Origin: Crossaster papposus
Lineage: Eukaryota; Echinodermata; Asteroidea; Velatida; Solasteridae
NCBI GenBank assembly: GCA_037893245.1
Contig: JBAIAA010000409.1
Span: 1,479,001 to 1,543,000 of the forward strand
Direction: 5' to 3'
DNA length: 64,000 nucleotides
A program made the position numbers and the translations under genes. The first letter of the stretch is position 1; every line of letters starts with the position of its first letter. The notes below the pieces were generated by a model. It had not been told where the DNA came from, ran no database searches, and saw only the letters and a program-made list of their open reading frames with translations. Below are positions 28,220 through 60,847 of the stretch, in pieces.

Positions 28220-28768
28220 TCGCATCGAGTTTTACTTCTGTCCGACTCGATGTTCAAAGGGCTCAAGGGATTTTGTTGGCCGGCGGCTTTGAATGTCAAA
28301 ATGTCCATTAACAGAGGAGCAACATTTTTAGATTTGTGCAGAAAGCTTGTCTCGGCTTGTCGGTCCGGCCAGCGAGAGGTAGTAGTTTTGCATGGAGGCA
28401 TAAACGACTTCAGCCGTTTAGCCGGCTGCGCACCAGGAGCTCTGGAAGTTGTCAGGGTATTTCAGGCGGCCGCCGTTCGGGTCAAAGAGGAGTTTCCTGA
28501 TTGCATATTCGTTCTCTCTTCATTGTGCCAGACGAAAATAGTCCACGTCAACCGGTCAGTTGCTACGGTCAATTCGTCGCTAAGGGAGAAATGCTGCGAC
28601 GCAGGCTGGCTTTTTTGCTCAAACGACAGCATTGGGCAAGCCGAGCTGCAGGACGAGGTTCATTTGTCCATGATCGGATGGCTCAAGTTTCACCGTCATC
28701 TGCTTATGTTCCTACGGTCTATTTTGAACCTTCCGCCCCCCGGTATTCAAATACCATGTCTGATTTAA
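28220..28768 (+). pseudogene. SGNH hydrolase domain of the Ngaro element
   Basis: The open frame encodes RVLLLSDSMFKGL (block I, catalytic Ser), VVVLHGGINDFSRLAG (block III GxND) and DEVHLSMIGWLKFHRHLL (block V Asp-x-x-His), the serine/Gly/Asn/His set of SGNH hydrolases. It lies between RNase H and the recombinase, where metazoan Ngaro elements are known to carry an extra hydrolase-like domain; its role in transposition is not settled. The catalytic residues are kept, although the surrounding frames are shifted. The usual GDS is SDS here. Confidence 0.75.
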
Positions 28769-28851
28769 GATAGGCGGTCGTCAGTCCTTTCGCATCGGTT
28801 TCATTTCTTTTATTATTTTGTTCTTTCAAGGCGGACGCCGTCGAGGCTAGA

Positions 28852-37939: not shown

Positions 37940-37995
37940 CGTGATGTACCACACTCCTTTCCGGTCCCAGGTTAGCAAGTAGTATTCGAATGTTG

Positions 37996-38681
37996 TGGAT
38001 CGTCAGGAAGTGTAGAACCAATTTACGGACTAGAAATCTTGCAATTCGTATAGAGACATAGAGACACAACACCTGATGATTAACTGTTGTAAATTCCGGT
38101 TGTGTTGTCCTCTTTAATCTTAGTTATTCGAACTGAAACAAACAAATAAACAGAAAATCCTTAAGCATGCTTGCAAAAGTACATGTCACCTTTAAATTGA
38201 AAAACTACAAAAATCTAGAAAATAACCCAGTAAATGCAACTACCTATCATCCTATATTAATCTGATACTTTGTTAGACAAATCTGAAATGTTCTCACTAA
38301 TTAACAAATCTGGCTGAAAACTTCTCAAACCGTATCATGCAAGTACGTGTACATGTAAACACATGTGAGCTCGATAAATGCAGTCACCTTTAATCCGTAA
38401 ACGTGGCAAAAAGTATGGAAAGTCTAACCTTCTAAACAAAGCTTATTTCACCTTAAAATGTAACTTAACAAATACTCACTACCGTGGCAAGACTCTAGGT
38501 TCCACAGGCTTCAGTTAACTGACACAAAACAAGGTTTTAAACGGTAGAAAATTCGGTGATACTTTTAGCAATAAAACGAACGTTGTAAACATGGCTGAAA
38601 AACATGTGTAAAAACAATGTCTATTCACAAGAGGGCGCCCTTCAGGTTTGCTGTAAGGACAGCTCTTTGTTCATTGAAACA
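37996..38681 (-). repeat. 5' LTR of the young BEL
   Basis: 686 bp, near-identical to the 3' LTR. The sequence just inside it, CAACATTCGAATACTACTTG on the element strand, is where the primer-binding site should be, but it does not start with TGG. Confidence 0.95.
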
Positions 38682-41184: not shown

Positions 41185-41325
41185 GTATATTGTACATGTA
41201 CATACGGATGTACACATGTACACATGCACATAATTATACATGTACATATACATTCATATGTGCATGTACAGTTGAACACTTGCATACATGTACATGTATG
41301 TACATGTATGTACATACACTCTGTC
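41185..41325. repeat. ACATGTAC-type palindromic microsatellite
   Basis: Overlapping ACATGTACAT, TACATGTATG and GTACACATG motifs, all self-complementary or nearly so. Confidence 0.75.
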
Positions 41326-41376
41326 ATGAACTGACGAAAATCAGCCGAAGAGGGCGTTTTGCGGAAATTTGTCAAT

Positions 41377-41439
41377 ATGGCTTCCGAGCTCTCGCGTGAT
41401 ACTAACGTTAGCTATACCATGGAGGAAGGAAAACGGATA
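41377..41439 (+). CDS. Candidate small first exon
   Basis: ATG at 41377 opens 21 codons (MASELSRDTNVSYTMEEGKRI trimmed at its last residue would be the exon product) ending at ATA, followed by a consensus donor GTAAGTGAAG at 41440. The phase (0) does not give the sacsin frame with the exon at 46353, so it would belong to another gene or an alternative start. Evidence is only the start codon, codon feel and donor. Confidence 0.3.
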
Positions 41440-43231
41440 GTAAGTGAAGTGCGGGGAAATACTTAATAAAACAAATGGTCAATCATAAAACTAGATTTGC
41501 TTTCCTGCACTTGAAAAGACCCACCGTGTATTTATGCTCCTTAGACAACCGGTTAGGTCCAACATTTTAACTGATTAGTGCCTATTTTTTTTTTTTAGTG
41601 GCACTGAACTGAAGCTTTATTTGAATGCCATATATTTGAATGCCATACAGTAATTATTTTCTGGGGCCAATTCATGAAAACCAATATTCTCTTTGAATTT
41701 TGTAATTTTTTTGTTGGACATCAAATGTAAATTTGGGGCTTTACTGTACACACAAGCACTTTGTTCACATAATTACTATGGACGTTAAACCTCAACATTC
41801 TTGAATCCTGCAATGTTAATTTTAAAACCAACTTTGCGGTGCTTATAAAAATAACAAGGCCACGCTCCTTTTAAGGTTTTCCAAGGTTTTTACGTGAGCA
41901 TATCTCAAACAACAGTCTCATGTGTTTTCTAGACCTAGTAGTAGAAGTGCTATGAAAGCAGTTTTGGGAATCTTAAAAGCCCTATTTATAAGAATTTACA
42001 TGTTTCTGAAATTTCATGTTGGAAAACATCCATTCTGGGGGCGAAAGATAAACTCAGATCAATTAGCTGTCATTTTCACACTGTAAATCAGGATTACTCG
42101 GTGCATTGATGTCATACAAAAGCATGAACTTTTCATAGTCAACAACTTTGTTATGACCTTTAATCTTCATAGAACTTTCCATATAACGCAGGTGCAACAA
42201 AATATAAGCGGTGCGTTGGACAGTGACCAGTTGGCTTGGTAAAACAATGTGATTACCCAAGCCCATCTAGATCATCAGGCTTGCTGTTCTCTTTATCTTC
42301 CGTTCCAAATCACAACCACGACAACGTGTACAAAACATACCAAGCCGTAGTGCTTACAGATTGGACGCTATTTCATTCGAAAACCGTTCCCAAACTCGAC
42401 ATGACGGAGAAATGTTCGAAGGCGCTGTTGTCAGAAGTCATAAACACCAGAATGCTGTGTGGCCAGAGATAACACCCGATTATAAACGCCATGGCTCCGC
42501 CTATAAACAAAATAATGGCATCCAGTGTGGATGAACTTATCGATGTGAGGCCCTAAAACTAAAAAGTGTACCAACAAATACACATGGGGCCCCGTAAGCC
42601 AATAACATACATTCAAAATAACTTGTGACATAAATAAAACAATATCTTTTGTACATGCAACAACGCTACACAAAACCCGATCATGATCTCAATGTAACGT
42701 ATATTTTGCACGTACACGACTAGCTGCATAAGTACAGGTCACGGGCGCCGAGGCGTATATTATTTCACAATATAGGGATTTCTCTTATGAGAAATCGCGC
42801 AGAACATTTGTATAGAGCAAACACGACCCCCCAAAAAAAAACAAAAAAAAAAAATTAAAAAAAAAATCGTTCAATATGTATAGCTCATTGTTAAAACACA
42901 CAGCTATTCGGGTAGATTTTTTTCTGTGTATGATGTGAACGTGGGAAGTGGTGGTTATATTGATTCCCCCCCCCCCCCCCCCCGAAAAAAACCCATAAAA
43001 AACACGAGCGACAGCCAGTAAGAGGAAGTAGTCCAAAGGTGGGTTTTTAATCCAGAGTCGTGTTCGGCGAGTGGTTGAAAGCAGTTCACATTGCGAGTAG
43101 GTGGATTGATGCGAATTCGGAAACAAGATTGTCAATGTCAATTTTGAATCTCGCACATCTAAATGGCCTGTCTGTAAGTGAGTAGGACGCCTGACTTGTG
43201 TCCTGGGATTCCAAGGAATCCTTTTGTTACA
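41440..43231. other. No gene seen; C18 tract
   Basis: Open frames near 42063-42472 on both strands show no domain. A run of 18 C lies at about 42966-42983, preceded by A-rich DNA (42832-42867). Confidence 0.4.
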
Positions 43232-43262
43232 ATGGCAGATGGAACTCTCACAAGCAAAGAAC
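43232..43262 (+). CDS. Sacsin-like gene, candidate exon 1
   Basis: ATG at 43232 (ACAATGGC) opens 10 codons plus one base (MADGTLTSKE...), then the donor GTAAGT at 43263. The one leftover base (C) joins with the AT that begins the exon at 46353 to form a codon and brings in exactly the frame that reads as sacsin there. There is no other domain in so short a piece; the call depends on that phase match and position. Confidence 0.5.
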
Positions 43263-46200
43263 GTAAGTTGAATGTTTTACTATGTACTTTTTAAACTAGG
43301 CACTCAGTGCATTCAACAGGCTGTGAAACCCATTTTGCGGGGATTGCTGTAACGCAATTGGCGGAGGTGCGCACATTATCTAGCTTGAATGATTACCTGG
43401 CCGATGACGCACTTACTAACTTACTATTTCTTAAGAGCTTTTTAAAGGAAATTGTCACCCCCAACGTATGTATATACACATCGATTCGCAATTAACTGTT
43501 TAAAACTATATTAGGTCCACGTTATACTGCCAGTCATTTTCTAACATTTCTCTTCATAGGACGTACCTCGTACTCTTTAACAAAAGTAATATTCTTAACA
43601 AAAGTAATATTTTTTTCCTCCTAAAGAATTGACAATCCTTTGACAAAGTCTTTTCAAAGCAAAAACCCTTACTCGTCTTGCGAGGACCGAATTATTTTCT
43701 GACAGCCAATGAATCCAATTTCGTGAAGAAATAATTCAAGTTTAATAATCAAATGATGGATTTTTCGTTTGACGTCTCAAAGTAAATAACTTGTATGTTA
43801 CTAGGAAAAACGCCATTGAAAAACATATTTTCGAGGTGAAACTTGGTTATCAGTACTAAGCCTGTATCCCTAAGAATAAATATACATGTACATCGTAAAA
43901 ACCAAAGAAATTAATGGTTTCCTCCTCATTGTTAACCAGCACACTTAATATTAACCATTTGGTTTCGTTTTCTGTTTCAACTGGTTTGGCTCGTCAGGGT
44001 CCTTGGATTTAGTATACACTAGACCGTTTTCCAAATCCCAGCTTCGTCTACGTCTTTGACTTCGTTCATGCAGATTTGGCAGTGGTGATGGAGCTAGAGG
44101 CGGAGCCTACACTGGGGTTCGGAAAACGGCCCTGGTGTCATTGCACGCTCTGTGAAATCCCCAGCACGCAATAACGGCGACAAAAGTAGTTCTGGCCTCC
44201 CAATAGTCTGTCTATTGTCCTTTATACTCGAATTAGAGACTGGATTTAATGAAAGATGGTATTTTGTATTTGCATTACATGTAATAGGCCTAACCATTGC
44301 CTTGACAAAAAACAATGTGGCAAAAGTTGTGCTTTGGATTTCAAACATTTTGTTTCCTTCATCTAACGTATTATGTATACCTAGTGTTTTCTGCTATTGA
44401 AGAACAAATTCAATTTGTTAACCAAAAACTTATGCAAATTTTGAAAAAGCCGAGAAATGTTTACTCGAAAATAGGTGCAACTGATTTACTCTAACTATTT
44501 TAGTGAGGTGGGAATGCTTCGACTTACTGTTTCCAATTTCCAATTAATTAACAAAATTGCTTAATAAAAATCTCAAATGACCTTGTAAAAATAGGTGCAA
44601 AATTGTCCTTGGACACAACGAGTAGCCGTGTGTTTTGGTTATCTATATATTTTTATTGTTTTTTGAAGAGGGGTTTGAAGAGGTTGTTGAATTGTTTGCT
44701 CTGAAAAACCCCTAGCACGCAATACCGGGCAATACAAAATATAGTTCTGGCTGTGAGTCAATTTACGCAGCAAGCATGTGATCGAACATTGCAATGTCGC
44801 GTGATTCATTTGTGGGCAGTGACGTGCGAACAAACTTAATAAATGTATTGAATTTGTGTCGAAGGCCAATCAATCGTTAAAACGATTTGAGTGGAGCAGC
44901 GGCGTAGCCTCCCCCCCCCCCCAGTATATAATACTGATAATAGCGTACAAAAAATCATGAATACCCTTTTATCTCATTATTTTGTTTCCCCACCATAGAC
45001 AAACCAACCAGGATTACTGATGATAGTAGAACACTTATTGATAATATTTTTACCAATGTTTATCAAGACCTACCTGCTGGTATTTTGTCTACTGATTTTA
45101 GTGATCATCTTCCCATATTTTTAATTATTGAAGACTTTACTGAAAGAGTCCGACCGGATAGTAAATGTAAAAAGCATGACTTTAACCACAGTAATGTTGA
45201 TAATTGTATTCATGATTTGAATGATACTGAGTGGGATTGTATAACTTCTATAAACGATATCCACAGTATGTATGACACTTTGTACTACATATCAAACAAC
45301 TTTATAATAAAAACATTCCTCTGCACGAGGTAAAATGTCGCTAGGATAAACTCAAATCCCCACTCAACGTGGTCTATCCCGAAGCAGTGCAGCACTCACT
45401 GACGACGACACAATTACATTTAGTAATTACCACAATTTACCACTTATTCCTTTTCATTTTCCGGCAAGCACCGGGTACAAAATGCTTCGTGACCCACATC
45501 ACATTGTACACATACGCAATTGATTTATCACTCTACCCATCTAGCGGATGCCGAAAGTACAAGTCTAATTGGGTTCACTCTTGGTATGCAATTATTGCGG
45601 GATGCGTAATATATGTAGATTGAGGTGACATAATGATGCGCGCTTTCATAATACCAACTAATACCTCAGAGAGTTAATAACTTCTACTTGGTCCAGACGC
45701 GATCGTGTGGGGGTGTATTAACAGGTGATATAAAAACCACCCATTTAGCAGGTGCCGCGCGAAACGCGCCACTCTGCTAGTGTAGACATACAACGAAAAG
45801 CAAAGGCACACAAGTCAATGCACCGTTGGAGCACCTGCCTGACATGGTTACGTAACTTATGCACACAAAATACAGGTCGCGCAACAATTAGGATCCTGTA
45901 TGTGTTTCTAATAATACTACAGGTACATGTACAACAATACAAAGATAATGCTTGATATGTAGTCAGGCACAAATACTAGAAGGAATTACCAGTATTAACA
46001 TTTGACAAAAGAAACACAGCACACTAACAATGGACATTCATTGTTACTGTTCACATTGTATAACTTAAGAAGAAAGTATATGGAAAGGCTAGATAACTAA
46101 AATTCCCTAGCCGCGCTCCGAAATTCCTATGAAACAAGATAGGGAGCCCCGCCTCCTTTGTGTTGGTCATTATTATTTTTGTAATTGTTTAGCTGTTTCG

Positions 46201-46352
46201 GCATTTCAGCTGGAACAGCTCTTGTCTTCGTTAACGTTTTTTGGTTTTTTTGAACGCGTCACAAAACTGCCCGTCAGGAAGTACACTAAAACTGTACACC
46301 TCTTTACAAAGCATGAATTGTACACGTTTATAATATTTATCTATTATTGCAG
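43263..46352 (+). other. Probable intron 1 of the sacsin-like gene
   Basis: GT at 43263 and TATTATTGCAG at 46342-46352 bound it. It holds a LINE endonuclease fragment (45001-45333), a C12 tract near 44911, and two diverged copies of a short repeat (GCTCTG-AAA-CCCC-AGCACGCAATA at about 44148 and 44698). No other gene is seen. Confidence 0.45.
45001..45333 (+). pseudogene. Non-LTR retrotransposon endonuclease fragment
   Basis: The frame reads TLIDNIFTNVY and STDFSDHLPIFLIIEDF, the C-terminal signature of the APE-type endonuclease of LINEs (LIDNIFTN ... SDHLP-(I/V)). It lasts 111 codons and is cut on both sides. It lies in the probable intron 1. Confidence 0.8.
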
Positions 46353-46441
46353 ATGAATCATTTGGTCAGAGGTTGCCGCCGCTGTACATCTATTTGAAGA
46401 GGGTTCTTGACAAGTATCCTGAAGGTGGACAAATACTAAAG
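46353..46441 (+). CDS. Sacsin-like gene, exon 2 (start of first sacsin repeat)
   Basis: This 89-bp exon lies between TATTATTGCAG and GTAAAT. In the phase set by exon 1 it encodes ESFGQRLPPLYIYLKRVLDK and then YPEGGQILK. Sacsin family proteins begin their first HATPase-like repeat with FGQ-x-x-PPL ... L-x-x-YPEGGQILKELIQNA(D/E)DA, so this is the family signature up to the point where the ATP-site helix starts. Exon 1 plus exon 2 give 40 codons exactly (phase 0). The exon that should continue with ELIQNADDA is not found up to 51564. Confidence 0.85.
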
Positions 46442-46695
46442 GTAAATTCTATATTTTTATATTTCCCGATACGAAATCTTAACTTAAATTTATAAAAAGA
46501 ATAACTTACATACCGTATTTTTTTCGCATTACACTTTGTATACTAAAATTGGTTTCACCTAATTTCAACAATAATGGTATTAATAAGCACACGAATTCCT
46601 TACAGTTGTTTTTGTTTGCAGTACATGAATTTAATCTTTCACATTTTGGAAAGGATCCTAGTTTACAATCGCCTTACCAATAAGCCCTTTTCAAA

Positions 46696-47064
46696 CAATA
46701 AGCCATTTGCAAGTTAAATTTGATTAACATCTGGTACACTGACTTGTTCAACATGTTTGGCACATTTTTACTTTGAATTCTCCAGACTAAAGAGACTGTT
46801 ACTATATCACGTGATTCGGGGCAAGCCTTACGCTAGCAACCCCAGCTCCAGAATGGTCTGGTGTCTTTCTGCCATTCTCACCCATTATGAACGATGTATT
46901 GGTGCCAAGCGTTTCTTACGTAACTATGCAAGAGCTTGCTCCAAATCATGTGATACAGCAACATTGTCTTTAGTCTGGAGAATTCAAAGTTAAAACGTAC
47001 CAAGCATTTTAAACAAGTCATTGTACCAGATGCTATGTACATTAAACTCGCAAATGGCTTATTG
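46696..47064. mobile_element. MITE with TIRs of about 100 bp
   Basis: CAATAAGCCATTTGC at 46696 and the next 85 or so bases, down to TTTGAATTCTCCAGACTAAAGA, are answered in inverse by 46968-47064 with scattered mismatches. The total is 369 bp; no ORF. Confidence 0.85.
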
Positions 47065-47569
47065 AGTTATAGTTTCTGTAAACTATTGAAAGTCGGGTCC
47101 AGACCTTTGAGTGTGAAAGAATGTGACCTGTCATGACATAATGGGGAATAACCCCTGAATCTGCCCAAGATTAAATACGGCAATGCTGTGCTGCAGATTC
47201 AGGAACTTTATTATGTAGTAAGTACAAACTTCTGGTACAGTTTTGTAATCTTACATGATTATCAGGCACAGATTGACTACAATAAAATAAATGTCACAAG
47301 AAATGATCTAATGTTTGTGAACCTTTTGATTTAAACACAATTATCTCAACAATATGCACATAGCATATATTCCGCATGACTAAAGCAATATCTTTATGTT
47401 TACACATGTATACATGTACGTGGACAATACAAGTGTACAAACTCTGACCTAAATCCAGTATACATACTCAAAGCTGATTTACATTTAAGGAAGGTTTATA
47501 TACTACCCTGTAATCTCAACCAACAGCACATTTACATGGAAATTATAACATTAACATGTTCCACAATAA

Positions 47570-48277
47570 AGCCCGGTTCATACTTCATGTGAGTGCAAAG
47601 CGGATTTTACGTCATCATCCCCTTCGCAAATACTTCGCTGCGAAGTTCGCAGCAAATTATCGCAGGCAGTTTCGCACGAGTTCAACTCTGCGATTCTTCG
47701 CAAAGTTGACAACCAATCAAATCGCAGCATTAACTAATGTTTACAATACCACTTGAGGGCGCACTAGTTTCAGGGTCTTTTTGAATCCATGGCTTCGTTT
47801 TGTTTTATAAAGTGAATTTTAGGCTACTATGGGAACCCTATCCACATTCTGGTGCCTGTTGTGCTTTAGAAACATTCAATCAGTTGACAGGAGCCCTTCA
47901 TTTCTATTTACTTCTCAGTGATTCGGAAATCAGATGCGAAGACGAAGCAAAGGTCAAGTACGCGTACTAGAGGGCGACAACATAATGCGGCGCAAATGAT
48001 CTTTGCACAAACATTTCATGCATTTATTGCTTGTTCATTCATTAGCTGAAAATTGTATTCTTCATTTCCATCACACTGAAACAATAACATTCAACTTGTT
48101 GGAAATTGTTTACCAACATTTATTTTAAACACTGAAACACGGTGGACTTAACTTGACAATTCGCAAAAAGTATGAACGTATCTTTTCGCAACGAGTTAAT
48201 TCGTCGCAAATCGCAGCCAATCAATTCGAGATAAAATTCGCATCGGCTTCGCATTTGCATGAAGTATAAACCGGCTT
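47570..48277. mobile_element. MITE with GCCGGTTTATACTTCATG-type ends
   Basis: AGCCCGGTTCATACTTCATG at the left is answered by the complement of AGCCGGTTTATACTTCATGC at 48255-48277. The interior near both ends repeats GCGAAG / CTTCGC and TCGCAGC. About 700 bp, with no transposase. Confidence 0.65.
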
Positions 48278-48279
48278 CG

Positions 48280-49070
48280 AATATCTCGAATCGTCTCGAA
48301 TCGAAAATGTGTCCAATTCGTAGATAATTCTCAAACGTTTCTTGCATTTCTCAAATGATTTTTAGTTGATTCCTAATCATTCGTACAGTTCGCGTGAGTT
48401 CGTCGGGCCGCCACGAAAGTTAGGCAAAAACATTCGTGGGAGGGTTCACAAATTTCAATTTCGTAGATGTATCGTAATCACTTCGTAACCCTTTCTTATT
48501 GTCCGTAACAGCTTCGTAATCGATTCTTTTGCATTGTGGGCTATTCTTAGACATTCGTGTCTCCTTCAAATTCGTTGACCCACGCCGAAAACAGCCACGA
48601 ATGTCGCGAATCAAGTACCAATCATTCACGATTCGGCCACGAATCAGGTCCGATTTTTATAGCCTTTCGTGACCCGAGAATATGCCGAAATGTCACGAAC
48701 AATGCCGATTATCGTAAACTATTCGTAGATAGGTCGTAGTAGTCGTAACTTAATCGTCGAGGTCGTAGTGGATTGGTATGATTCTTTAAAATCGTACCTG
48801 TTTCTTAACCCATTCTTGACATTCGGCATATTTTTCAACCCGATTAGCCACGAATTACCGTAAGTCTTTCGTAATTAACTCTGAACAGCTTCGTAACTCC
48901 TCCCAAATCTCCACGGATTTTTTTATATTTTTTGCCGAATCGCCACAAATTTCGACAATTTCCGATTCGGCACGATTCGGGATATTCGTAGCGTAAGTGA
49001 AAGCAGGGCATTAGAGTTTTCACGGGGCACGCGAACGATTCGCGAATGATGCGAATGCCCCCCAAATGGC
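48280..49070. repeat. CGAAT/ATTCG-rich segment, probable mobile remnant
   Basis: The words ATTCGT, TTCGTA, ACGAAT and CGAATC recur every 10-30 bases in both orientations, far more than around it, and TTCGTGAC / GTCACGAA and GATTCGG / CCGAATC form small inverted pairs. No clean termini are identified. Confidence 0.4.
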
Positions 49071-49164
49071 AAAGTCAAACATTCGTATTTTAGGTGCCAT
49101 TGTCTGCCAGGCCCCACGTCTTTAGCGGCCGACCCCTGTACGTAGACAGTTCAGCAAGGTCCAT

Positions 49165-50409
49165 TTAGTCCAGTCAATCTAGTGGCCCAACCCACCACTA
49201 ATTGCAACATAATTTTGTTCACTGCTATGCATTTGAGAAATGTCCCCTTAAAACCATACTAAAAGTATACCGAAATATATTTGGTGGAAAAATGTTAAAT
49301 TTGCATAAATCGTTAATCCCTGCTGTGTAATATGTTTATTCCCATATTTGGGTATATATTTTATTTTATTTTTTTTTAAAGTTTATTTTGGCGATTATAC
49401 TTAAACATCCTTACTTCAATAACATTTTTTAAAGCATGTAAGTGACTAAATAATTATGAAAATATAGTAATGGTCCAAAATGACTACAATTATACCCTAT
49501 CATTTGCACGCATTTACCGTGTCTCCAGATATCATCAAGTAGTAAGTATTGAAGTGCTTCAAATTCACCAAGTTGCTTACTGGCACAGTTATCCCATTAA
49601 AACCTTATGAAAAATCATATGAACAATGATAACATTGTGATATTTAGCCCAGCAAACAAAAACTTGGAAAAAATGATGTGTCCCTAAATTGGGCTAACAA
49701 GTAGGTGAAGGGTTGCCTAAGGTGAAAGACTTGAACAAGTTCAAGGAAACCCCCCCAAATTTAAGATTTTTGTTGCTTACAATAATAATATCTACGTTAA
49801 AATGTATTTTGGGGATTTCCTTGAACTTGTTCAAGTCTTCCATGTTAAGAAACCCTTTAACTACTTTTTAGCCCAATTTATAGACACACCATTTTTCCCA
49901 AGTTTTTGTTTTCTGGGCTAAATATCACAATGTTATTATTGTTCATATGATTTTTCATAAGGTTTTAATATGATAACTGTGCCAGTAAGCAACTTGGTGA
50001 ATTTGAAGCTCACCAATACTGACTACTTGATGATATCTGGAGACAGTGTAATGTGCGCACATTTATAGGGTCACGAAGTTGTCATTTTGGATAATTACTG
50101 TGTTCTCATAATTATTCAGCCACTTATATGCTTTAGCAAATGTTATTGAAGTAAGGATATTTAAGTAGAATCACCAAAATAAACTTTTCAAAAAATAAAA
50201 ATAAAATATATACCCAAATATGGGAATAAACATATTACACAGCAGGGATTAACGATTTATGCAAATTTAACATTTTTCCACCAAATATATTTCGGTATAC
50301 TTTTAGTATGGTTTTAAGGGGACATTTCTCAAATGCATTGCAGTGAACAAAATTCTGTTGCAATTAGTGGTGGGTTGAGCCACTAATTTGGTTAGATTGA
50401 CTGGACTAA
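49165..50409. mobile_element. 1.25-kb fold-back element
   Basis: The left arm 49165-49750 and right arm 49817-50409 are inverted copies, roughly nine bases in ten alike by eye, around a 66-bp loop. Ends read TTAGTCCAGTCAATCT / AGATTGACTGGACTAA; the right arm has an extra 8 bases near its tip. There is no ORF or clear target duplication. If transcribed it would form a long RNA hairpin. Confidence 0.9.
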
Positions 50410-50429
50410 TTGCCGACGTGGTAGATCTT

Positions 50430-51564
50430 CTCCTACGACGCCACCTCCTGAGTCCCAGATGAAGCGGTGGAGTAGGGAGGGCCTGCAGCCGTCTTCCACA
50501 CTTGCTTCCAAGATGCTTCCAGCCATGCACTTCTAGACAGGTCCTCAGGGATAGGTGAACAGAGCATCTCTTGTACCGCCTTGTTGTAGGGGTGGCGGGA
50601 CTTGAGTCTGCTTGGAGGGGCCACTATCGTTGTGGTGTTATGCAGGATGTGCCAGTCGTTTTTCTGGGCTTTCCTTGCCAGGGCGAGGGTAGCAGCCTCC
50701 CGTCGGAGACCGGCTTGGGCGATTCCTGCTAGGACTGGCAGCTGGAACACAGGGGTACGGTGGGCTTCAAGCAACCAGTAGTAATCCGGAGGGCGTTGTT
50801 GATAGCCACATCAACCTTCCTCACGTGTGGGCTTCTGCTCCAGGCTGGGGCACAGTATTCGGCTGCAGAGAAGACCAGGGCTTGCGTGGATATTCGTAAG
50901 GTCTTTACAGATGCTCCCCAGGTCGTACCAGCGAGGCGTCGGATAAGCGAGACCCTTGATGTCACCTTGGCCTTAACATCTTCTAGGTGTTGCTTGAAGA
51001 ACAGTATTCGATCCAGGCGTACGCCGAGGTACTTTGGGGCTTGTTGGAACTCTAGGCGTTTGTTGTCAACGAGCACATCCAGTTCCCCTTTTGCTTCTCT
51101 GTTGTTAAGATGGTATGCCGCTCACACTGTCTTATCAAAGCTGAGCTGCAGGCGCCACCCCTGGAGGTAATTAAGTTACCAAGATGCCCACATCTTGGTT
51201 GAGACCATCTTCCATCGCCTTCCATGTTGGTCGTCGCAACATAATGGCCAGGTCGTCCATGGCCATTGGTCTGTAGGACAAAGCTGTTGTCACGGCTTGG
51301 TGACTTACCCGGTTTGAGCCTACTCATGGCTGCACTGAGTTCAGCTGCTGTGAAGTCTCCTGAGAGATTGGCATTGGCACTAGCCGCCCTGAAGAGTGAA
51401 GACACCTCACGCGACGTCAGGCGGGCAACATCTTTGTCTGCATCCGGGAAGCGACCGTTCTTCAGAAGCTGGGACGCGATGGCGTCTGTTGTCACCGGGC
51501 ACCTGGGTGGCGTTGTATTTCTACATGTCAGTTTGTTGATGGTCTGCCACGCCTTGCGACTGGA
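50430..51564 (-). pseudogene. Jockey/CR1-like LINE ORF2 fragment, internally deleted
   Basis: Minus-strand frames give, from high to low coordinates, SSRKAWQTINKLT-like and NAIASQLL-like pre-RT sequence (51560-51400), SRLKPGKSPSRD near 51310, then a jump to the RT C-terminal part KYLGVRLDRILFFKQHL (near 51020) and LVFSAAEYCAPAWSRS and NALRITTGCL (50760-50880), then LPVLAGIAQAGLRREAATLAL. The RT palm is deleted near 51200-51300 and frames shift. Its upper end abuts the sacsin-like exon at 51565; its lower end abuts the fold-back. Confidence 0.85.
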
Positions 51565-54500
51565 GTGGGTAAAGTCAACAAAATTGACTTGTTGTTGACT
51601 TTGTTGCGGACAACAAAATGTATCCCCACTTCCCCGAATGGCAACGAACTACTGCGTCCTGACCAATTAGTCAACCCCTGTTCATCAATCGGATCACTCT
51701 ACAGTGAGGAGAACTGTCGGTTTCCACACGGTAGCGAATTCCGCGAAGAGACACGCCTGCTATCATTGACACAGCTCGGGATGGCAACAGACGACTTGTC
51801 ATGGGAAGACATTTGTGAAAGAGCCGAATCAATGCTGAATGATGATCAGTGTGAAAAGAGGTGTACAATACTCCTAAAGTTAATCAGCAAGAAGATTATA
51901 AAGTCAGACCATCCTACCTCAGAGCCGAAACAACGAATTCAACACGCAGATTTCCTTCCTGTCCTGAAAATACCCGATGGTTACCCAGCCAAATGGTACA
52001 CGTGTGAAGATGGATTGATGTCTGCTGCTACATTGTACGCGTGTTCTCATATGGATTTGTTGGGTTCCGTTCGGCCTTTGTTAGACGAGGACAGACTTGG
52101 ATTCGAAACGATTGGCCCTCAGATCAAGGACTTCCTTGGTATTCACAAGAAAAAAGTTACAGTCACTGATGTTGTACAACAACTTACTGAGGTCATCGAG
52201 GAAGCATCAGCAGTCAAGCCACAAATATATCCTATGTTGTATAGTATATATAACTTTCTCCATACGGAAGTAGTTAGCGAAAGCTGTCATATGTTGGTAA
52301 AGGAGGAACATCGTGCTGCGTTTAACAAGCTATGCACATTGAGAATCGTTCTGTGTGAAGGAGCATTCCGATATTGCAGACAGCTAGCCTTTGACTACAG
52401 CGGCCCAAGTGGACCGTATCTGTTCCGGGTTCCTCCTGAGGTAATCCAATTTGAGAACCTGCTGAAGCTTTGTGGGATTAGGGACAAGTTTGAAGTGAAG
52501 GACTACCTTCAAACTCTACAAAAACTGAAGACAGCGTACAAAGACACTCCACTTGCCCAGTCCGATCTTAAAACTGCTAAGGCGATGGTGTCTGAAGTTG
52601 TTTCCAAGTCGACAATCGATCCAGATGGAACCAGAACTATCTTGAGCGGCGCAACGATATACATCTCTGACAACTCTAACGTCTTGCGGCCACCCCTAGA
52701 ATTAACATTCAATGACGTCGACTGGGAAGGAACTTGGGGAAGCAATATCTACACGCATTCAGATATGTCCTACAATGATGCAAAAGTTTTTGGCATTGTC
52801 ACACAAAGAGAGAAGCAGCTTGAAACATGTTCTTCCTCCGGTGGCTTCGAAATGGATTTTGGGCAACACGAAGAGCTGACGGACCGTTTGAGTTGTATTC
52901 TCAGGTCCTATCCCAATGTTTCCGACGTATTCAAAGAGATGCTTCAAAATGCTGATGATGCTGGTGCCAGTGAAATACATTTCGTACACGATCCCCGCAG
53001 TCATCCATTTAAGAAAATCACATCAGACTCATGGGCTGCTGTACAACAACTTCCATCTTTGTGTATCTATAATGATAAGCCTTTTACCGAAAAGCACATA
53101 AAGGGAATTCAGAATGTCGGAGTGGGGGGAAAAAGAGACGACATTGCAACAACTGGGAAGTTCGGCATCGGGTTCAATGCCGTTTACCATCTGACCGATT
53201 GCCCAAGTTTCATGACCAACAGAGACAGTCTGTGTGTGTTTGACCCCCTGTTGAAGTATGTCAGAGGGACCCGAAAAACGTTCCCTGGTAAAAGGTTTTC
53301 AACCACAAACAAATTTAGAGAGTTGTACCCGGAAATGCTTAGTGGTTATCTAGAGGACATAGACGAATTTCGTGGAAAGAAAGGCACAATGTTCCGTTTA
53401 CCACTTCGAGCTGAGGCTTCTGTTATTTCGAACAATGTTTACAGCCCCTCAGATATGCGTAGTTTGCTGAATGATTTCCAGAAGGTGTCACAGGACGCCC
53501 TACTCTTTCTGAATAACATCAACAAAATCACAATTTCGCAAATCGAAGAACAGACGGGTAAACTACAACAAGTATACAGCATCAATGCAAAGTTGACAGC
53601 TGAAGACCACCAAAGCCGCATGAAACTTGTAGAACACTTGATGCTATTCAACGAACACCCATGTCAAGAAATTGATCCCATGTCATGTGTTTACAGCCTC
53701 GTGACGAAGGACTCAAGCGGACATTTTAAGACTTGGTTAATTTCACAGATGCTGGGTGTTAAAGGTCTTGACATAAATAGCCAGACGTTGTCAAACGCTT
53801 CAAAATTAAAGAAGCCTCTCCCAAGGGGAGGGATTGCAGCGCTGATGAAAGACAGCAGAAAAGAAGATATGCGTGAATGGCAATGTACAGCCTACTGCTT
53901 TCTCCCATTACCCATTTACACAGCATTGCCCGTGCATGTCAATGGAACATTTGAGTTGGATGCTGCAAGAAAGAATCTCCAGAAAGGTTGTGCTTATTCT
54001 CGATCCAGTGGAAGATCTGAAGACGGCCTAATCCACCCGTGGAACAAGCTGCTGGTGGAGAACGTCATTGCCCCGGCTTATGCCGAATTAATAACACATG
54101 CAGGCAGAAGAATGCTAGGGACGTCAAAAGCCAAAAAGTCTTACAATAAACAGCTGAGACTATATGACAACATCTTCCCTAAAAATCCCAATGCATTACG
54201 TGGGGAGTGGCGCCTGTTAGCTGAGGCAACCCTCCGCTATATCGGCGACAACAATTTGGAGGTTCTGCCGATGGTGAAACCTACATCTGGCAAAATCAGC
54301 TGGCACCACCCGAATAGTGATACGAGCCGTGTGTTTTTCGACGACTTTGATGAGAACGATGATTTTAGTAGGAGTGTTGGTGTAGAAACATCCAAACCTC
54401 AAACTAACTCTACTCTATTGCGCCCGTTTCTGCTCAAAGTTGGTTTCTATCTCTTGAGTAGCTCCTCTGAGCTGTGTCGGGCCTTTCAAGCGTGTGATGT

Positions 54501-57500
54501 CAAAGCTGAGTTCGTATCTCCACGAGCCGTTGTGCAACACCTCTCATCAGAGTTTGTATTTACCCCAGAATTGCCAGCTCCACTGAGAAAAACAGCATTC
54601 AAGGGTATGAAAACTTTCCGAGCGGTGTTCGAGTATTGCCTTGTTAGTCTTACAAGGCCGACGGATTTACATGGGCTCCCACTCAAACTTGCGAATGATG
54701 AGACTCTTGGTCGGTTTACAAAAGTAGATGGGTTGTATGTGACATCGCATTGGAAGGTACTGCCGTCCTTGGGTAATATGTTTTTGCACAGAGATCTTGT
54801 GAAGTTATGCACTTCTTGGTTTGAGAAGAATGGCATTTTAGAAGATGCCTACACCTGTGGCGTATTTATCATGTTTACCATCGCTGAGCTTGGCAAGTAC
54901 TTGGGAGAGCAACTTCCAGAAGGTTGGCAAGGATGTGGTCAGCACGTAGAGTGGCAGCCCAAAAAGAAAGATCATCCATCAGAGTTATGGCTAAAAGACT
55001 TGTGGAGGTTCATCTGCAGTCAAATGTCTGACGAAATGTCCTTGCAAGCTATCGAAAACTGGCCGATTTTTCCGACGACAGCAGGGAATTTAGTTCCGCC
55101 CACTAAATCAAAGACGATCATGTCACTGCACACTGTAGATCGCATTGGTTTCGGGCAAAAGTTGGCTGAAGTACTCCGTAAACTAGGGCTACCGGAAAAT
55201 GCATGGAAGAAAATGTGCCCATCTTACAACACAGATCCACCAAATGATCTAACACCGATACTGGACGCGTACTTAGCCTTGCCAAATTCACACGAAGAAA
55301 TTATTGGCATTATCCAATACATCACAGTCACTTCTGCACTGTTTGGTACACTTGAACCAAAAGATTGCACCACCTTGCTACAGTTCTTCCAGGAGGGATT
55401 TGACGATAAGACGCTGACACTGCCGAACATCCAGATAATCAGAAGCCTTCCTATTTTCCAGCTTTTTGGAGAGACCAAAACCACAGATATCCAACGCCCT
55501 CTGCTTTATCACACCGTAGATGAGCACGTTCAGGGTAAATACGACGTGTTTAGAGAGGAACCGAACATCTGGATGGATAACATGAACTGTGTTTTTCTTG
55601 AAGCCATCCCTACGCTGTCTTTGCTCCATAAGGAACTCGGGATATCAGCTGTCACACTTGCTGAAGTCTACTTGAAGTACATACTGCCAAGTTTCCATCT
55701 ACTTACACAAAATGCTAGAATCAAGCACATTGAAAATATCAGGGACGACGTTCTCCAACAAGCCTCAAGGACAGACGAAGAAGCTATACTTAATTCCCTA
55801 ACCAGTGTAGAATTCATTTATGACCAGTCCAACAAACTGCGATCTGCCAGTTATTTCTATTACCCAGGAAATCCTGTCTTTAAGGCAATGGTTGATCCAG
55901 CGATGTTGCTACCTGAACATCCAGAACATACAGGTCATCTAATGATACATTTCCTTGCAAGGATTGGTCTACACACGGAAGTCACCGGGCAGAACTTCAT
56001 CGGCTTTGCCCGACAAGTAGAACGAAAAGCCCGGGGAAATACTGATAAAAATCAGCTGGAGGTTCTTTGTGGCAACTCAAGACTTCTGAAGAAAGAACTT
56101 GATTATAATGACAGTCTACATGATCAAAATACGCTAAGGAATATTTCCACAATCAAGTTTATTCCGTCCTCTTCTATTAAATCGGAACTTTTGACCATCT
56201 GTCCTGCGTACTCTTCGTCTGACATTCAGACCCGGGGTAGGCTACCATTTATTGCGTACCGTGGATCAGTCCCATCCAAGTATACGGAATTGGTGTGGTC
56301 AGCTTCAAGCGTGTTGACACAATGGGCTCAACCAGTTGCTGGGAACAAACAAATTCCGAGAAACAAACAAATTCCGATAAGTCCAGAAAACAAGGTGACT
56401 GTTCATGAATGCCTTGGAATCGTAACAAACGCAAGTGCAGTCATGGAAATGGTGTTGACACACACTAAGCTTGTCTGTGAAAGAATGGAGAAAAAGAACG
56501 CGATTTACAAGAAAGACAAACTCTCTAAGAAAGTAAGGGAGACTGTGGCAGGCGTAATGAATAACATTTTTCAGCACTTGAATGAAAATATGTCCAAACA
56601 CGAGAACACCATTAAGAGGTGTTTGCTAAACACTCCCATATGCCCTGTAGAGGGCAGTACCGTTTTTGTTAAGGCAGAGCAGGTACTATTCAACTTAGGC
56701 GACATCAAGGATGGTGCTCTTAAACCCTATTTGTACAAACTACCACGGGATTTGATGCGTTTTGAATACATTTTCAAACTACTTGGAGCCCAGGAGACGT
56801 GTTCCTTTGATCAACTTGCTGGAGTTTTGGCGACCCTAGCAAATCATTGTGAGAGAGAGTCAAACAAGTTGAATCCCAATCAGCAAAAATCTGCCCAATG
56901 TGCCGTTAAGGGCATTTTTAAATTATTGAAGGACCAGAAAGAGGGGTGTCAAATTTCCGCCGCTAAGCTCTATCTACCTACTGTAGAATATACCATAACG
57001 GAGGCACGTCAACTGTATTATGCAGATCCATATCAAATGCAGCAATTAGACACGGCTTCCTTTGGTGGGAGAAAGTTCATCCTTCCTCTACGAGTTTGCG
57101 GATTCAGATGCAAAAATGAAGTAGCTCTCTTTAGTTACCTCCCACACAGACTCCGTCCTAAATTCCTAATGGATGAAGTGCAGGAGAAGCCATGTGACAC
57201 AAACAAAGAATGCAACGATGGACAAGATTGTCAATTCTTGGCACATATCAAGCAGATGTTGATCTCCGAAGAGATGATGGGAGTGTTGCTGAGACTTTAT
57301 CAACACCAACTGAAGGAAACGGAAATATCAGAGGAGATTGTAAAACGAATTGAAGTGTTGCAAAATTTCAACAAACTTTCCTGCCAGGTAAAATTAGAGC
57401 TTGGGCTCTACGACAACGACGGTATAAAAGTTACAAACCAGCAGTATTCACGGAAAGCATTCTGGGACAAAAACAACAGTACACTGTATCTGGAGCACGT

Positions 57501-58830
57501 GTGGCCTTTGGGAAAACACATGAGTCAAATTTTTCAAGAAGTTGCAAAATGTTGCAATGAGTTGCTTGACGATTTGTTGAACGGTGATCACGTATCTATC
57601 CTACAGAGTGCATTAGACAGTCCAAGTCCCATTGAGATGAACGATGTTTTGTCCTCACTTGGGATTCCATACTATGGATTCCAGACAGAGAGACACAAAC
57701 TAGGAACAATCATTCCCCGTGATGTACGTACTCTTCTTAACGATGACCCATTCAACCGTTTTGAAAAAGATGAGATCGTTGGTTACAGAAGAACCATAGA
57801 CGAGTTGCCTGCAGAAGATGCAGTTGCTACGCAGAGTAAAGGAAGGCGCGTATCATCACTTGACTCATTAACAGGGGAAGCAACTGAGGTTATATATGCC
57901 ATCATTGTTGGTCAAGTCAGTTCGGATGACGAGGAGAGTATCTTGTCGAGGCAGTATGAAATCGATGTTGGTCTGGAAGAGCATATCATCGTGAGTGTTA
58001 CAACGCTCTTTAAGTTTCTAATTCTTAAGGACGAAGATGATGAAGGGTTGACGGATAATACCCTCCCAGCAGACCCGCAGAGTGACAGAGAACAGATTCA
58101 GAGGGAAGTAAGAGAAGCCATGGCATTACCGGATGAAGAACAAAGGAGGATTATCCACCGTTTATACCGGAAGTGGCATCCCGATAAAAATCCAGGTCAG
58201 GAGAAGCGTACTACTGAGGCTTTTCAATTCCTAACAAAGGAGATAAACCGATGTGATGCGGCACACCAGTACAGACAGGACTACGATTGTTGGGAGTCGG
58301 AGGTTAGAAGAGACAAGGATGAAGCCAGGGAATATCACAACCAAAGTAGGAGGAGACGGAACAAGGCAGGCTGCAGTAATGTGCCACCCTCCTTTTCCAG
58401 GGAGACTCCAGACCCACGCAGTGCACGACTGTGGTTTCGGCAGGCCAGGGAACACTTTACCGCTGCTGAAAAGACGAGTCTACTTGGACCATCCCAGGTA
58501 CAGTGGGTTGCCTTTCAGCTCCACCAAGCAGCCGAATTAGCTCTCAAGGCAGCCCAGTATAACCTCACTGGACGCCCCGACATTCACAATAACAGTCTGA
58601 CCAGTTTGGCAAGCATAATCTGCAGACACCGCTATGTGACCTCAAACGAGTTGATAAACCTCGTAAGCGATTTAGAACGTCATAAGTGTCTTTATGACAG
58701 GCCGCGCTATCCAGTGAGTTCACAGACTAGTGGACAGGCTTATCGAAGCTTCAGTGTAGAAGACGCCATGAGACACTGCAAATCCTTACTCATTCTTGTC
58801 CAGGACATAATTGGGATACAGGAGTTTTAA
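51565..58830 (+). CDS. Sacsin-like protein, long C-terminal exon (about 2421 codons)
   Basis: An uninterrupted frame. Its first codon here is GTG, so the true start lies in upstream exons; family-like sequence begins at NKIDLLLTLLRTTKCIPTSP. Residues 1-420 look like the end of a sacsin repeat. About 430-690 form an HATPase_c-like repeat: FGQHEELTDRL, EMLQNADDAGA (Glu/Asn/Asp-Asp ATP site) and KFGIGFNAVYHLTD. The long middle follows the sacsin pattern. Near 2203 a DnaJ domain has WHPDKNP, so HPD is intact and Hsp70 contact is possible. Residues 2282-2420 form a C-terminal HEPN domain. Vertebrate sacsin is about 4600 residues with three repeats and acts as a large cytoplasmic co-chaperone; this is roughly half. 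No stop or shift is seen, so selection has kept it or decay is recent. Confidence 0.93.
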   Translation: MGKVNKIDLLLTLLRTTKCIPTSPNGNELLRPDQLVNPCSSIGSLYSEENCRFPHGSEFREETRLLSLTQLGMATDDLSWEDICERAESMLNDDQCEKRCTILLKLISKKIIKSDHPTSEPKQRIQHADFLPVLKIPDGYPAKWYTCEDGLMSAATLYACSHMDLLGSVRPLLDEDRLGFETIGPQIKDFLGIHKKKVTVTDVVQQLTEVIEEASAVKPQIYPMLYSIYNFLHTEVVSESCHMLVKEEHRAAFNKLCTLRIVLCEGAFRYCRQLAFDYSGPSGPYLFRVPPEVIQFENLLKLCGIRDKFEVKDYLQTLQKLKTAYKDTPLAQSDLKTAKAMVSEVVSKSTIDPDGTRTILSGATIYISDNSNVLRPPLELTFNDVDWEGTWGSNIYTHSDMSYNDAKVFGIVTQREKQLETCSSSGGFEMDFGQHEELTDRLSCILRSYPNVSDVFKEMLQNADDAGASEIHFVHDPRSHPFKKITSDSWAAVQQLPSLCIYNDKPFTEKHIKGIQNVGVGGKRDDIATTGKFGIGFNAVYHLTDCPSFMTNRDSLCVFDPLLKYVRGTRKTFPGKRFSTTNKFRELYPEMLSGYLEDIDEFRGKKGTMFRLPLRAEASVISNNVYSPSDMRSLLNDFQKVSQDALLFLNNINKITISQIEEQTGKLQQVYSINAKLTAEDHQSRMKLVEHLMLFNEHPCQEIDPMSCVYSLVTKDSSGHFKTWLISQMLGVKGLDINSQTLSNASKLKKPLPRGGIAALMKDSRKEDMREWQCTAYCFLPLPIYTALPVHVNGTFELDAARKNLQKGCAYSRSSGRSEDGLIHPWNKLLVENVIAPAYAELITHAGRRMLGTSKAKKSYNKQLRLYDNIFPKNPNALRGEWRLLAEATLRYIGDNNLEVLPMVKPTSGKISWHHPNSDTSRVFFDDFDENDDFSRSVGVETSKPQTNSTLLRPFLLKVGFYLLSSSSELCRAFQACDVKAEFVSPRAVVQHLSSEFVFTPELPAPLRKTAFKGMKTFRAVFEYCLVSLTRPTDLHGLPLKLANDETLGRFTKVDGLYVTSHWKVLPSLGNMFLHRDLVKLCTSWFEKNGILEDAYTCGVFIMFTIAELGKYLGEQLPEGWQGCGQHVEWQPKKKDHPSELWLKDLWRFICSQMSDEMSLQAIENWPIFPTTAGNLVPPTKSKTIMSLHTVDRIGFGQKLAEVLRKLGLPENAWKKMCPSYNTDPPNDLTPILDAYLALPNSHEEIIGIIQYITVTSALFGTLEPKDCTTLLQFFQEGFDDKTLTLPNIQIIRSLPIFQLFGETKTTDIQRPLLYHTVDEHVQGKYDVFREEPNIWMDNMNCVFLEAIPTLSLLHKELGISAVTLAEVYLKYILPSFHLLTQNARIKHIENIRDDVLQQASRTDEEAILNSLTSVEFIYDQSNKLRSASYFYYPGNPVFKAMVDPAMLLPEHPEHTGHLMIHFLARIGLHTEVTGQNFIGFARQVERKARGNTDKNQLEVLCGNSRLLKKELDYNDSLHDQNTLRNISTIKFIPSSSIKSELLTICPAYSSSDIQTRGRLPFIAYRGSVPSKYTELVWSASSVLTQWAQPVAGNKQIPRNKQIPISPENKVTVHECLGIVTNASAVMEMVLTHTKLVCERMEKKNAIYKKDKLSKKVRETVAGVMNNIFQHLNENMSKHENTIKRCLLNTPICPVEGSTVFVKAEQVLFNLGDIKDGALKPYLYKLPRDLMRFEYIFKLLGAQETCSFDQLAGVLATLANHCERESNKLNPNQQKSAQCAVKGIFKLLKDQKEGCQISAAKLYLPTVEYTITEARQLYYADPYQMQQLDTASFGGRKFILPLRVCGFRCKNEVALFSYLPHRLRPKFLMDEVQEKPCDTNKECNDGQDCQFLAHIKQMLISEEMMGVLLRLYQHQLKETEISEEIVKRIEVLQNFNKLSCQVKLELGLYDNDGIKVTNQQYSRKAFWDKNNSTLYLEHVWPLGKHMSQIFQEVAKCCNELLDDLLNGDHVSILQSALDSPSPIEMNDVLSSLGIPYYGFQTERHKLGTIIPRDVRTLLNDDPFNRFEKDEIVGYRRTIDELPAEDAVATQSKGRRVSSLDSLTGEATEVIYAIIVGQVSSDDEESILSRQYEIDVGLEEHIIVSVTTLFKFLILKDEDDEGLTDNTLPADPQSDREQIQREVREAMALPDEEQRRIIHRLYRKWHPDKNPGQEKRTTEAFQFLTKEINRCDAAHQYRQDYDCWESEVRRDKDEAREYHNQSRRRRNKAGCSNVPPSFSRETPDPRSARLWFRQAREHFTAAEKTSLLGPSQVQWVAFQLHQAAELALKAAQYNLTGRPDIHNNSLTSLASIICRHRYVTSNELINLVSDLERHKCLYDRPRYPVSSQTSGQAYRSFSVEDAMRHCKSLLILVQDIIGIQEF

Positions 58831-59100
58831 GTGTCGAATAGGCAGCATATTAACACCAGCAGAGAAATGGTGGAGTAGTCGACTACTATACACATAACGT
58901 GAATTATTGTCAGCCACTGCTATTTGAAATTCAAATTGTTAAAGGTGAATGTAAATACAAGTAATACAGTTTGAAAAACGATTACTGTTCAGTATCAAAT
59001 GTTAGGTTAAGCACGCTTTATCTGTAATCTCATATCCACGCCAGATATTGTTTTGTTTACTGGCCGCCTTGTTGCTCTCTATATAGAGCTTTAAAGTACA

Positions 59101-59106
59101 AATAAA
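59101..59106 (+). terminator. Possible poly(A) signal of the sacsin-like gene
   Basis: AATAAA lies 271 bases after the stop codon, in AT-rich 3' sequence. Confidence 0.4.
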
Positions 59107-59174
59107 AATTTCCGGCAATTTTCTGGTATCTATTATTACCAGAACTGTACACCTCATTTGACAGTTTTTAAGGT

Positions 59175-59569
59175 TTAAAGGGATCGTATACGTTTGGTAA
59201 TTGGAACCCACTGTTTGTTTCAACCCTATATATTTATAGATATATACCATAAAACTAACCTGTCACAATTTAATTTTAAAAGGTGCTAGCAATTTTGAGA
59301 TATTGCCGAAAATCTGGAGCGGTTATGTCCACGCAGGAAGAATAATCTGCATTGGAATACACAATCTGAGAAACGTCACTGCAGTAACGCTTCTCAGATT
59401 CAAATTTTTGGGGATACAAAGTGATATCTTTTTCCATAACCGCAGTACTCCGAAGTGAAAAGTTTCTAAAAATGCATTATACTATCTAAAGCTGCTGTAC
59501 TTCTTACCAAGTAAGTTTTTATTGCCATTAATTTTTGGAGTAATTACCAAACGTATAGGATCCCTTTAA
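59175..59569. mobile_element. MITE with TTAAAGGGATC ... GATCCCTTTAA ends
   Basis: TTAAAGGGATCGTATACGTT then TGGTAATT at the left is answered by AATTACCAAACGTATAGGAT and CCCTTTAA at the right. An internal TTACCAAGTAAGTTTTTATTGCC next to the right end resembles a MITE group I recall from echinoderm genomes. 395 bp, no ORF. Confidence 0.8.
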
Positions 59570-60620
59570 TAGATAATGTTCCAGCATAATTTTCGTGCAT
59601 TATTATTATTATTGTTTTAATTAAAATTCTACGTATACACAAGGCAAACTGACTATGTAAATTTGCATAAATCTAAAATTAGATTTTCTACCGCTTATAT
59701 TACGCGTAGTGCATGTAAAGTATAGATATTGCAATATTTAATCGTTTTTATCAATTTTTTTTCACGATTTTTCATGAAATTTGCCCCTTTGTGAAAACGA
59801 TGACGAATATCTATGCCCTATCGGTTTCTAAAAAAACACAATAACAGAATGCCGAAACAGCCATGTGTTTGTCCACAAACATAAATCTAGTTTGTTCTTG
59901 GAATCCTCATCCAAACACGATGTGCCTACGTGAATTTTTAGCTCACGGCTAAACCTCAGGACAAGGCCTAGCATGTATTTTGAGATAGCAAATCGACTGC
60001 TGAGGTGGTTCGTGTAGAAAGGAACCCCCTTCCCCGCTTGTTAAAGAGTTCTTCTCAGAAATTGACTCCACGCCGTAAAGGCTCCACGCTCCCAGTGTCT
60101 ACCGCCCTGCTAAAACTAAAGGCCGTGGAGAACACTGTGGACGAAACATCACATGTTACGTTAATTCACTGGTTTGCTTTTGAATATCCCAAGCAAATTG
60201 GTGATTTTTGAAAAATGAAAACTAGTTATCATTTGTTCTCTCTGGCTCTTTCATTTCTCTCTGGCCTAGAGTTGTAAATTTGCAGGCTAGAAATCCATAC
60301 TTTTTACATGTGAAACCACTATGTCTTGGCTAAATACAACCACCATTTTTGGAACGACAGGTCTTACATTAACAGCAGGAGTAACACATAAAGACAAGTG
60401 GGCGAGCTTACCCCACACCCATCCTGTTAGGGCAGGTTCGCCCACATGGTGGGGCAAGTTTGCCATATCAAAAAATAAGTCAAAACAATGAACAAACTAA
60501 TATTGCATTATAACTGTTCTTAGAAATATTTATTTAAGACTCTTTACCCTAGATGTAAATAATAGCTTGTGTTTTTTGTTCTTCAAAAGTTTATTCTCGT
60601 TTAGTATGTTAAAATAAATG
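59570..60620. other. No gene seen
   Basis: AT-rich intergenic DNA. A 68-codon frame at 60005-60211 has no ATG start or domain. A GTGGGC / GCCCAC and GGGGCAAG inverted cluster lies at 60398-60465. Confidence 0.45.
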
Positions 60621-60629
60621 AATACATTG

Positions 60630-60847
60630 TATAACAAACCAAATGGTTATAAACCACAACTTGTGATTTCTGAGCAACAGTTTTGTCTCATTAAACTGTT
60701 GAATATTAAAAGAAAATGCTATATAAACTGAATAGTTATAAATCACAACTTGTGATTTCTCTAATATTTGAGGGTAATCTTTTCTCATATTTAAACTGCT
60801 GAATGCAAACTAAAAATACTAGCAAACTAAATATTGTTGAACCACAA
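60630..60847. repeat. About 90-bp tandem repeat, third copy cut by the LTR
   Basis: ACCACAACTTGTGATTTCT (60653) and ATCACAACTTGTGATTTCT (60743) start similar units. A third at 60841 reads ACCACAA and then passes into TGTAGAGC, the LTR start. Confidence 0.6.

Follow-up and report, generated by a model that had tools for sequence, protein, structure and literature searches.

A probable truncated allele of a three-repeat sacsin-like gene in Crossaster papposus, read against its apparent second haplotype

How does a sacsin-like gene come to possess its first two exons and a long open final exon, with the sequence that should lie between them missing? The question is posed by a 64,000-nt stretch of the assembly of the asteroid Crossaster papposus (GCA_037893245.1; 1.02 Gb in 1841 contigs), namely positions 1479001-1543000 of contig JBAIAA010000409.1. 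We refer to this stretch as the window and to its contig as C409, other contigs being named likewise. A preliminary description of the locus offered two answers: either about half of the gene was deleted when a long interspersed nuclear element (LINE) and a fold-back element arrived, or exon 2 is spliced straight to a shortened exon. Comparison with a second contig, C236, indicates that the window very probably represents an allele of a three-repeat sacsin-like chaperone gene from which part has been deleted, C236 being read as the other haplotype, with the gene complete. The difference from C236, its two ends, the short filler that joins them and the counterpart gene are all directly observed.

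Both leading exons lie on the forward strand, as does the rest of the gene. Exon 1 (43232-43262, 31 nt) starts with ATG and ends in phase 1 at a GTAAGT donor; exon 2 (46353-46441, 89 nt) ends at YPEGGQILK with a phase-0 GTAAAT donor. Each has a counterpart in C236 and in a paralog on C193. Joined, they encode MADGTLTSKEHESFGQRLPPLYIYLKRVLDKYPEGGQILK, and reading through from exon 2 into intron 2 adds 17 further codons before a stop. Roughly 13 residues are encoded ahead of the first repeat in exons 1-2. The N-terminal ubiquitin-like domain of vertebrate sacsin would not fit within these two exons, to judge by that length, with no profile run and further upstream exons not sought.

The intact form of the gene was recovered elsewhere in the assembly. 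Window DNA from 51600-52600 gave ten matches in the genome: the window itself, C236 (96%), C193 (89%) and seven others at 64-69%. On both C236 and C193 the gene has four exons and zero internal stops, encoding 4376 and 4388 aa, respectively; the exon borders in C236 are all GT/AG, and a stop that was counted within the exon 3 SACS match of both genes is an intron TGA immediately before the acceptor. Exon 3 opens with ELVQNADDA and closes with FGLGFISVFHLT, while the long exon 4 opens with DMPCILS. The continuation ELIQNA(D/E)DA, which the family had been expected to show after exon 2, is therefore present in the form that opens exon 3 of these two genes, and not in the window. Searched in three pieces, the C236 gene matched Pfam SACS three times, the first match being divided between exons 3 and 4, as well as HEPN; the profile search gave three SACS repeats for C193 likewise. 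Human sacsin, as described in parts of PMC3710099 and PMC9880540, also has three repeats. The C236 gene is sacsin-like, and the window allele is best named a truncated allele of a sacsin-like gene.

The two forms differ by a single large replacement. A segment of 8,850 bp (C236:64820-73669) is substituted in the window by 26 nt (51577-51602). Relative to C236, the loss begins within the LINE, taking its 5' part, and runs through the remainder of intron 2, all of exon 3 and intron 3 and the first 43% of exon 4, as far as codon 1972; 1,932 of the 4,376 codons of the C236 gene are gone, so that the proposed deletion of about half of the gene is borne out. Because the paralog on C193 has the deleted sequence, its absence is the derived state. 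The filler shows templated copying from its surroundings, having a direct and an inverted repeat in common with the flanks or within itself. The direct one, 9 nt matching the right flank, was reached by 0.2% of 3000 shuffled fillers; the inverted one, an 11-nt reverse complement that overlaps the left flank, by 0.13%; and the two together by none of the 3000. Templated inserts at large deletions are ascribed to polymerase theta in portions of PMC5068794, where snap-back (reverse-complement) inserts form a minor part of its products. The window junction resembles such scars, being a large deletion with a short insert copied from its flanks in both direct and reverse-complement orientation; it is, however, one event, and its inverted copy belongs to a minor class among the products described there. 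Repair by polymerase theta might thus account for the junction.

What remains of the long exon can be placed precisely by this comparison. An open frame without internal stop spans 51400-58830 (2476 codons), and the uninterrupted frame given earlier as 2421 codons holds in that respect; true gene sequence begins only at 51603/51604, leaving 2,408 sense codons, and the frame upstream of this point consists of the 26-nt filler and antisense LINE. The retained 3' part of exon 4 (51603-58830) encodes the tail of the second repeat, the whole third repeat, a J domain and a HEPN domain, and closes with a stop codon at 58828-58830. The long exon does begin in mid-repeat, as had been described, but in the middle of the second repeat rather than the first, since the counterpart gene has three; assignment of the retained piece to the tail of a first repeat was dropped for the same reason. 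Nor is the first repeat alone missing: the second is hit as well, so that only the third survives whole in the window.

The surviving domains are recognizably those of sacsin. The third SACS (Hsp90-like ATPase) domain (52867-53577; Pfam PF25794, E 7.2e-73) is the only whole one left of the three ATPase repeats, which sets the window allele apart from sacsin. It matches the solved sacsin structures 5v44-5v47 and was aligned to SR1 structures of lizard and human sacsin (best E 4.6e-34), with EMLQNADDA and GKFGIGF of the third repeat aligning with ELIQNAEDA and GRFGIGF of 5v47. ATP-contacting residues of sacsin (E, N, D, A and glycines) are given in part of PMC9880540, and the corresponding ATP-binding segments, EMLQNADDA and GKFGIGF, are kept in the third repeat of the window. 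The J (DnaJ-like) domain (58090-58263; PDB 1iur, E 2.6e-10; Pfam DnaJ below cut-off) lies ahead of the C terminus and carries HPD, within HPDKNP in the translation. It is followed by HEPN (58423-58746; Pfam PF05168, E 2e-9, 38.1 bits against a cut-off of 22; PDB 3o10). The retained protein thus shares with sacsin J and HEPN matches to solved sacsin domains and a third-repeat match to SR1. Pfam returned no XPCB family at E 1 on the retained protein, the only way in which that domain was looked for.

Could the missing continuation of exon 2 simply have been overlooked? A six-frame regular-expression scan of the window found EL[IVML]QN[AS][DEN]D[AGS] nowhere, and E[MLI][LIV]QN[AS][DE]DA once, at 52936, where it is the EMLQNADDA of the retained exon. 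Comparison of the retained protein (from frame residue 61) with the rest of the window by tblastn, one of the checks proposed for the gap, gave nothing credible (best E 5.4), and besides the retained frame no frame in 43232-51600 exceeds 198 codons. In this part of C409, a genome-wide search with the SACS profile matched the third repeat and nothing else. As a probe, the ATPase domain of the third repeat retrieved 12 plasmid records at 26-39% identity, which represent distant bacterial SACS-like domains, whereas searches of viral contigs for relatives found none. Since the probe is sensitive enough to reach such distant domains, it is unlikely to have missed an ATPase exon within 5 kb. All four approaches (motif scan, tblastn, frame lists and profile search) agree that no ELIQNA(D/E)DA continuation follows YPEGGQILK up to 51564, as first noted, and together they rule out an ELIQNADDA exon hidden in the gap.

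The remnant shows none of the internal damage of a decayed pseudogene. There are 0 stops and 0 frameshifts in the 2,408 retained codons compared with C236, although essential exon sequence has been lost, as described above. Across the retained part, dS between window and C236 is 0.041 and dN 0.017, and the two contigs differ by 2% in exon 4. With changes polarised by C193 over 2,393 codons, and 29 codons that differ in all three set aside, the window branch has 34 synonymous and 38 nonsynonymous changes (ratio ~0.31) and the C236 branch 20 and 31 (~0.43), with no difference between the branches (Fisher p 0.46). The sole length difference in the retained part is 12 nt, in frame, C236 being the shorter and C193 having the window length. 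By comparison, 7,789 aligned bp of noncoding sequence from the same two contigs contain 154 substitutions and 39 indels, of which 36 have a length that breaks the frame, against 0 frame-breaking indels in 7,215 bp of coding sequence. Along the gene, divergence is uneven, ranging over 0.2-5.0% per 500 bp in the coding sequence that is retained; recombination has therefore probably brought together haplotype segments of different age. The absence of stops had been called unexpected if the gene is dead. To judge from the alignment, the open remnant does speak against an old dead gene, but it fits a young deletion and a remnant in use alike.

Whether C236 is an allele or a duplicate of the C409 region was assessed from their order and orientation. 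C236 aligns to window positions 41841-48593, 48607-49165, two LINE pieces, 51603-60083 and 60109-60847 at 94.7-100%, or 94.7-99.6% in the four blocks on either side of the gap. Downstream of the gene collinearity continues in blocks to the end of C236, the whole collinear stretch being C236 positions 52-81,687. Farther away, C236:124801-132800 corresponds to C409:1450322-1462605, C236:500001-505000 to C409:1120193-1125000 and, in pieces, C236:900001-905000 to C409:294051-306351. At the stretches of C236 sampled (0-82, 125-133, 500 and 900 kb of 961 kb), identity in blocks is mostly ~89-100%, orientation is always opposite and order is kept in most of them. This collinearity makes C236 the apparent second haplotype of the window region, and the alignment with another haplotype that had been suggested as a check yields an intact gene with 8,850 bp more. 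Several points weigh against a deletion allele read in this way. The 41 kb of the window upstream of 41.3 kb is not collinear with C236 and matches it only in scattered pieces (blocks of >=400 nt), order resuming beyond the window; RNase P RNA has one match in the assembly (16 scored among 32,579 candidates, with none in 14 control genomes); and the paralog on C193 has no second close copy in the DNA search with 51600-52600. The single RNase P RNA and the unpaired C193 imply that the diploidy of the assembly is partial at best. The junction, moreover, is known from the assembled contig alone, so that a fault is formally possible. Finally, some 20-25 disabling changes would be expected had the frame been unconstrained along the whole window branch and 0 were observed, unlike an old null allele; the frame can therefore have been free for at most ~12-15% of that branch.

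The non-collinear 41 kb, the single RNase P RNA and the single close copy of the C193 paralog all lend something to the idea that C236 arose recently as a large duplication of the C409 region and that the window gene is a truncated paralog. We consider this improbable, because the order of C236 matches that of C409 in most of the stretches sampled, out to 900 kb, resembling an unpurged second haplotype. Still less probable is an assembly artefact, in which the gap would be a mis-join and the individual would carry no such allele. The region is repeat-rich, but the 26 nt are not found as such in the searched 30 kb of C236, where only 10-mers of the junction stretch recur, which argues against a simple mis-join; nor is a mis-join likely to invent both a new sequence and its templated structure. 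Least credible of all, to the point of near-exclusion, is truncation of the gene by the LINE insertion itself. The LINE remnant lies antisense in intron 2 (50409-51576, reverse strand; its 3' edge is approximate and perhaps to the left of the fold-back) and adjoins the truncated exon in the window. The LINE is likewise found in intron 2 of C236, however, where it includes an endonuclease-like part and continues past the end of the window copy beside an open gene, on which ground the insertion was rejected as the cause. LINE identity and endonuclease were both judged by eye, and three LINE frames compared with Pfam reached no family cut-off. As the C236 element runs through the point where the left end of the deletion falls, the LINE must be older than the deletion, and the LINE edge at which the preliminary description had the long exon start marks one end of the deletion rather than of an insertion.

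The same comparison disposes of the proposal that the deletion accompanied the arrival of the LINE and the fold-back. The fold-back (inverted-repeat) element (49166-50408, arms ~90% complementary) is not in C236 and has its own 3-bp target duplication, ATT, at 49163-49165 and 50409-50411. It is a separate, independent insertion 1.2 kb from the junction, and it was ruled out as the cause of the deletion. Intron 2 shows two further features: an inverted repeat at 46696-47064, with 131-nt arms that are 84% complementary, is common to the window, C236 and C193, and C236 lacks 986 bp of the LINE (50490-51475), its join showing a 2-nt overlap, which makes another structural difference between the contigs, of opposite sign.

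There remains the possibility of a working short sacsin, in which exon 2 would be joined to a cryptic in-frame acceptor (for example 51532), or translation would start at 51781, giving a protein with one ATPase head, J and HEPN kept by selection. Its case draws on the 2,408 open codons without frameshift against C236, the contrast between 36 frame-breaking indels in noncoding and 0 in coding sequence, and a window branch ratio no looser than that of C236; the first in-frame ATG in the retained gene sequence (51781-51783, +) also lies in a fair context, GGGATGG, and could start a shortened protein. A young deletion explains the open frame equally well, however, the only bound being the at most ~12-15% of the branch that could have been unconstrained. 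Direct splicing of exon 2 to the shortened exon, the second answer proposed at the outset, found no positive evidence. The best acceptor among the listed phase-0 AG sites in 51380-52900 is 51532, with a score of 1.1, compared with 5.7, 2.7 and 6.8 for the acceptors of the C236 gene and a 95th percentile of 1.8 among 1,561 AG sites in 40-64 kb; no acceptor of any phase scores >2 in 51250-52900. These scores come from an approximate vertebrate-like matrix. In addition, the second-repeat tail has 7 synonymous and 17 nonsynonymous changes on the window branch against 27 and 21 elsewhere (p 0.045, uncorrected), although the window branch does not differ there from the C236 branch (6 and 9; p 0.51). 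Taken together, a selected short protein appears unlikely, if less so than the alternatives above. Somewhat more doubtful still is the fuller proposition that a stable sacsin-J-HEPN protein with one head is produced from the deletion allele, by way of a cryptic acceptor or a start farther downstream, and that selection holds this allele in the population beside the three-headed one as a natural structural polymorphism of a giant chaperone. On that reading, the HEPN domain and the multi-gene clusters of the family would hint at a possible role in stress or defence.

For the partial-deletion allele, we propose that the window haplotype suffered a double-strand break somewhere from the intron 2 LINE to mid-exon 4, and that error-prone end joining then removed 8,850 bp and added 26 nt of locally copied filler. 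Transcripts started at exon 1 might end in intron 2 after coding for a short peptide, or might skip to the remnant via a weak cryptic acceptor. The largest possible product would range from ~2,349 residues (start at 51781) to 2,472 (exon 2 joined to 51532) and would contain one ATPase head, J and HEPN. We infer that the allele makes no full-length protein; most likely its function is lost or strongly reduced, with the counterpart allele and the paralogs providing cover.

Further copies of the gene lie elsewhere in this genome. A genome-wide SACS family search, in which all 53 candidates were scored and whose counts are lower bounds, gave 51 matches, compared with 0 in 14 control genomes. Grouped by position, these form 14 gene copies, of which 12 carry the full set of three repeats: C678 has five in a row, C81 has two, and C282, C59, C927, C193 and C236 have one each. 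The two incomplete copies are that of the window, with the third repeat only, and one on C59 with the first repeat only. Whole gene models were built for C236 and C193 only, and some copy-bearing contigs may be haplotype pairs. The incomplete C59 copy (C59:601926-602760) is a second broken-looking sacsin-like copy, with only a first-repeat SACS domain and a 653-codon frame. The five genes on C678 (372955-470554) lie on the same strand at ~21-24 kb spacing.

Elsewhere, the window shows several further features. Between its flanks at 41832-41841, C236 has ~14 kb extra (41308-41832 corresponds to C236:96248-95723, and 41841 to C236:81687). At 39668-40914, a 16-bp unit, GGCAGCAAAGTGCCAA, is repeated ~78 times with 100% matches, and frames of >400 codons run through both strands of the array (six listed). 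A 1720-codon open frame on the reverse strand (32840-38002) resembles a BEL/Pao-type retrotransposon polyprotein by eye, and further retroelement-like frames, also named by eye, lie at 13266-15634 (Gypsy-like), 22951-24409 (Penelope-like) and 26241-30083 (DIRS-like).

Seen without its particular gene, the deletion is one further large structural variant in a heterozygous animal genome, and as such fairly ordinary. The second haplotype nevertheless corrects a plausible but wrong story, in which the arrival of a LINE cut the gene. It also suggests that one individual may carry, next to a complete copy, a sacsin-like gene in which only one of the three ATPase heads is left. Such a natural heterozygote could serve to test the need for each ATPase head and to show what a one-head sacsin is able to do.

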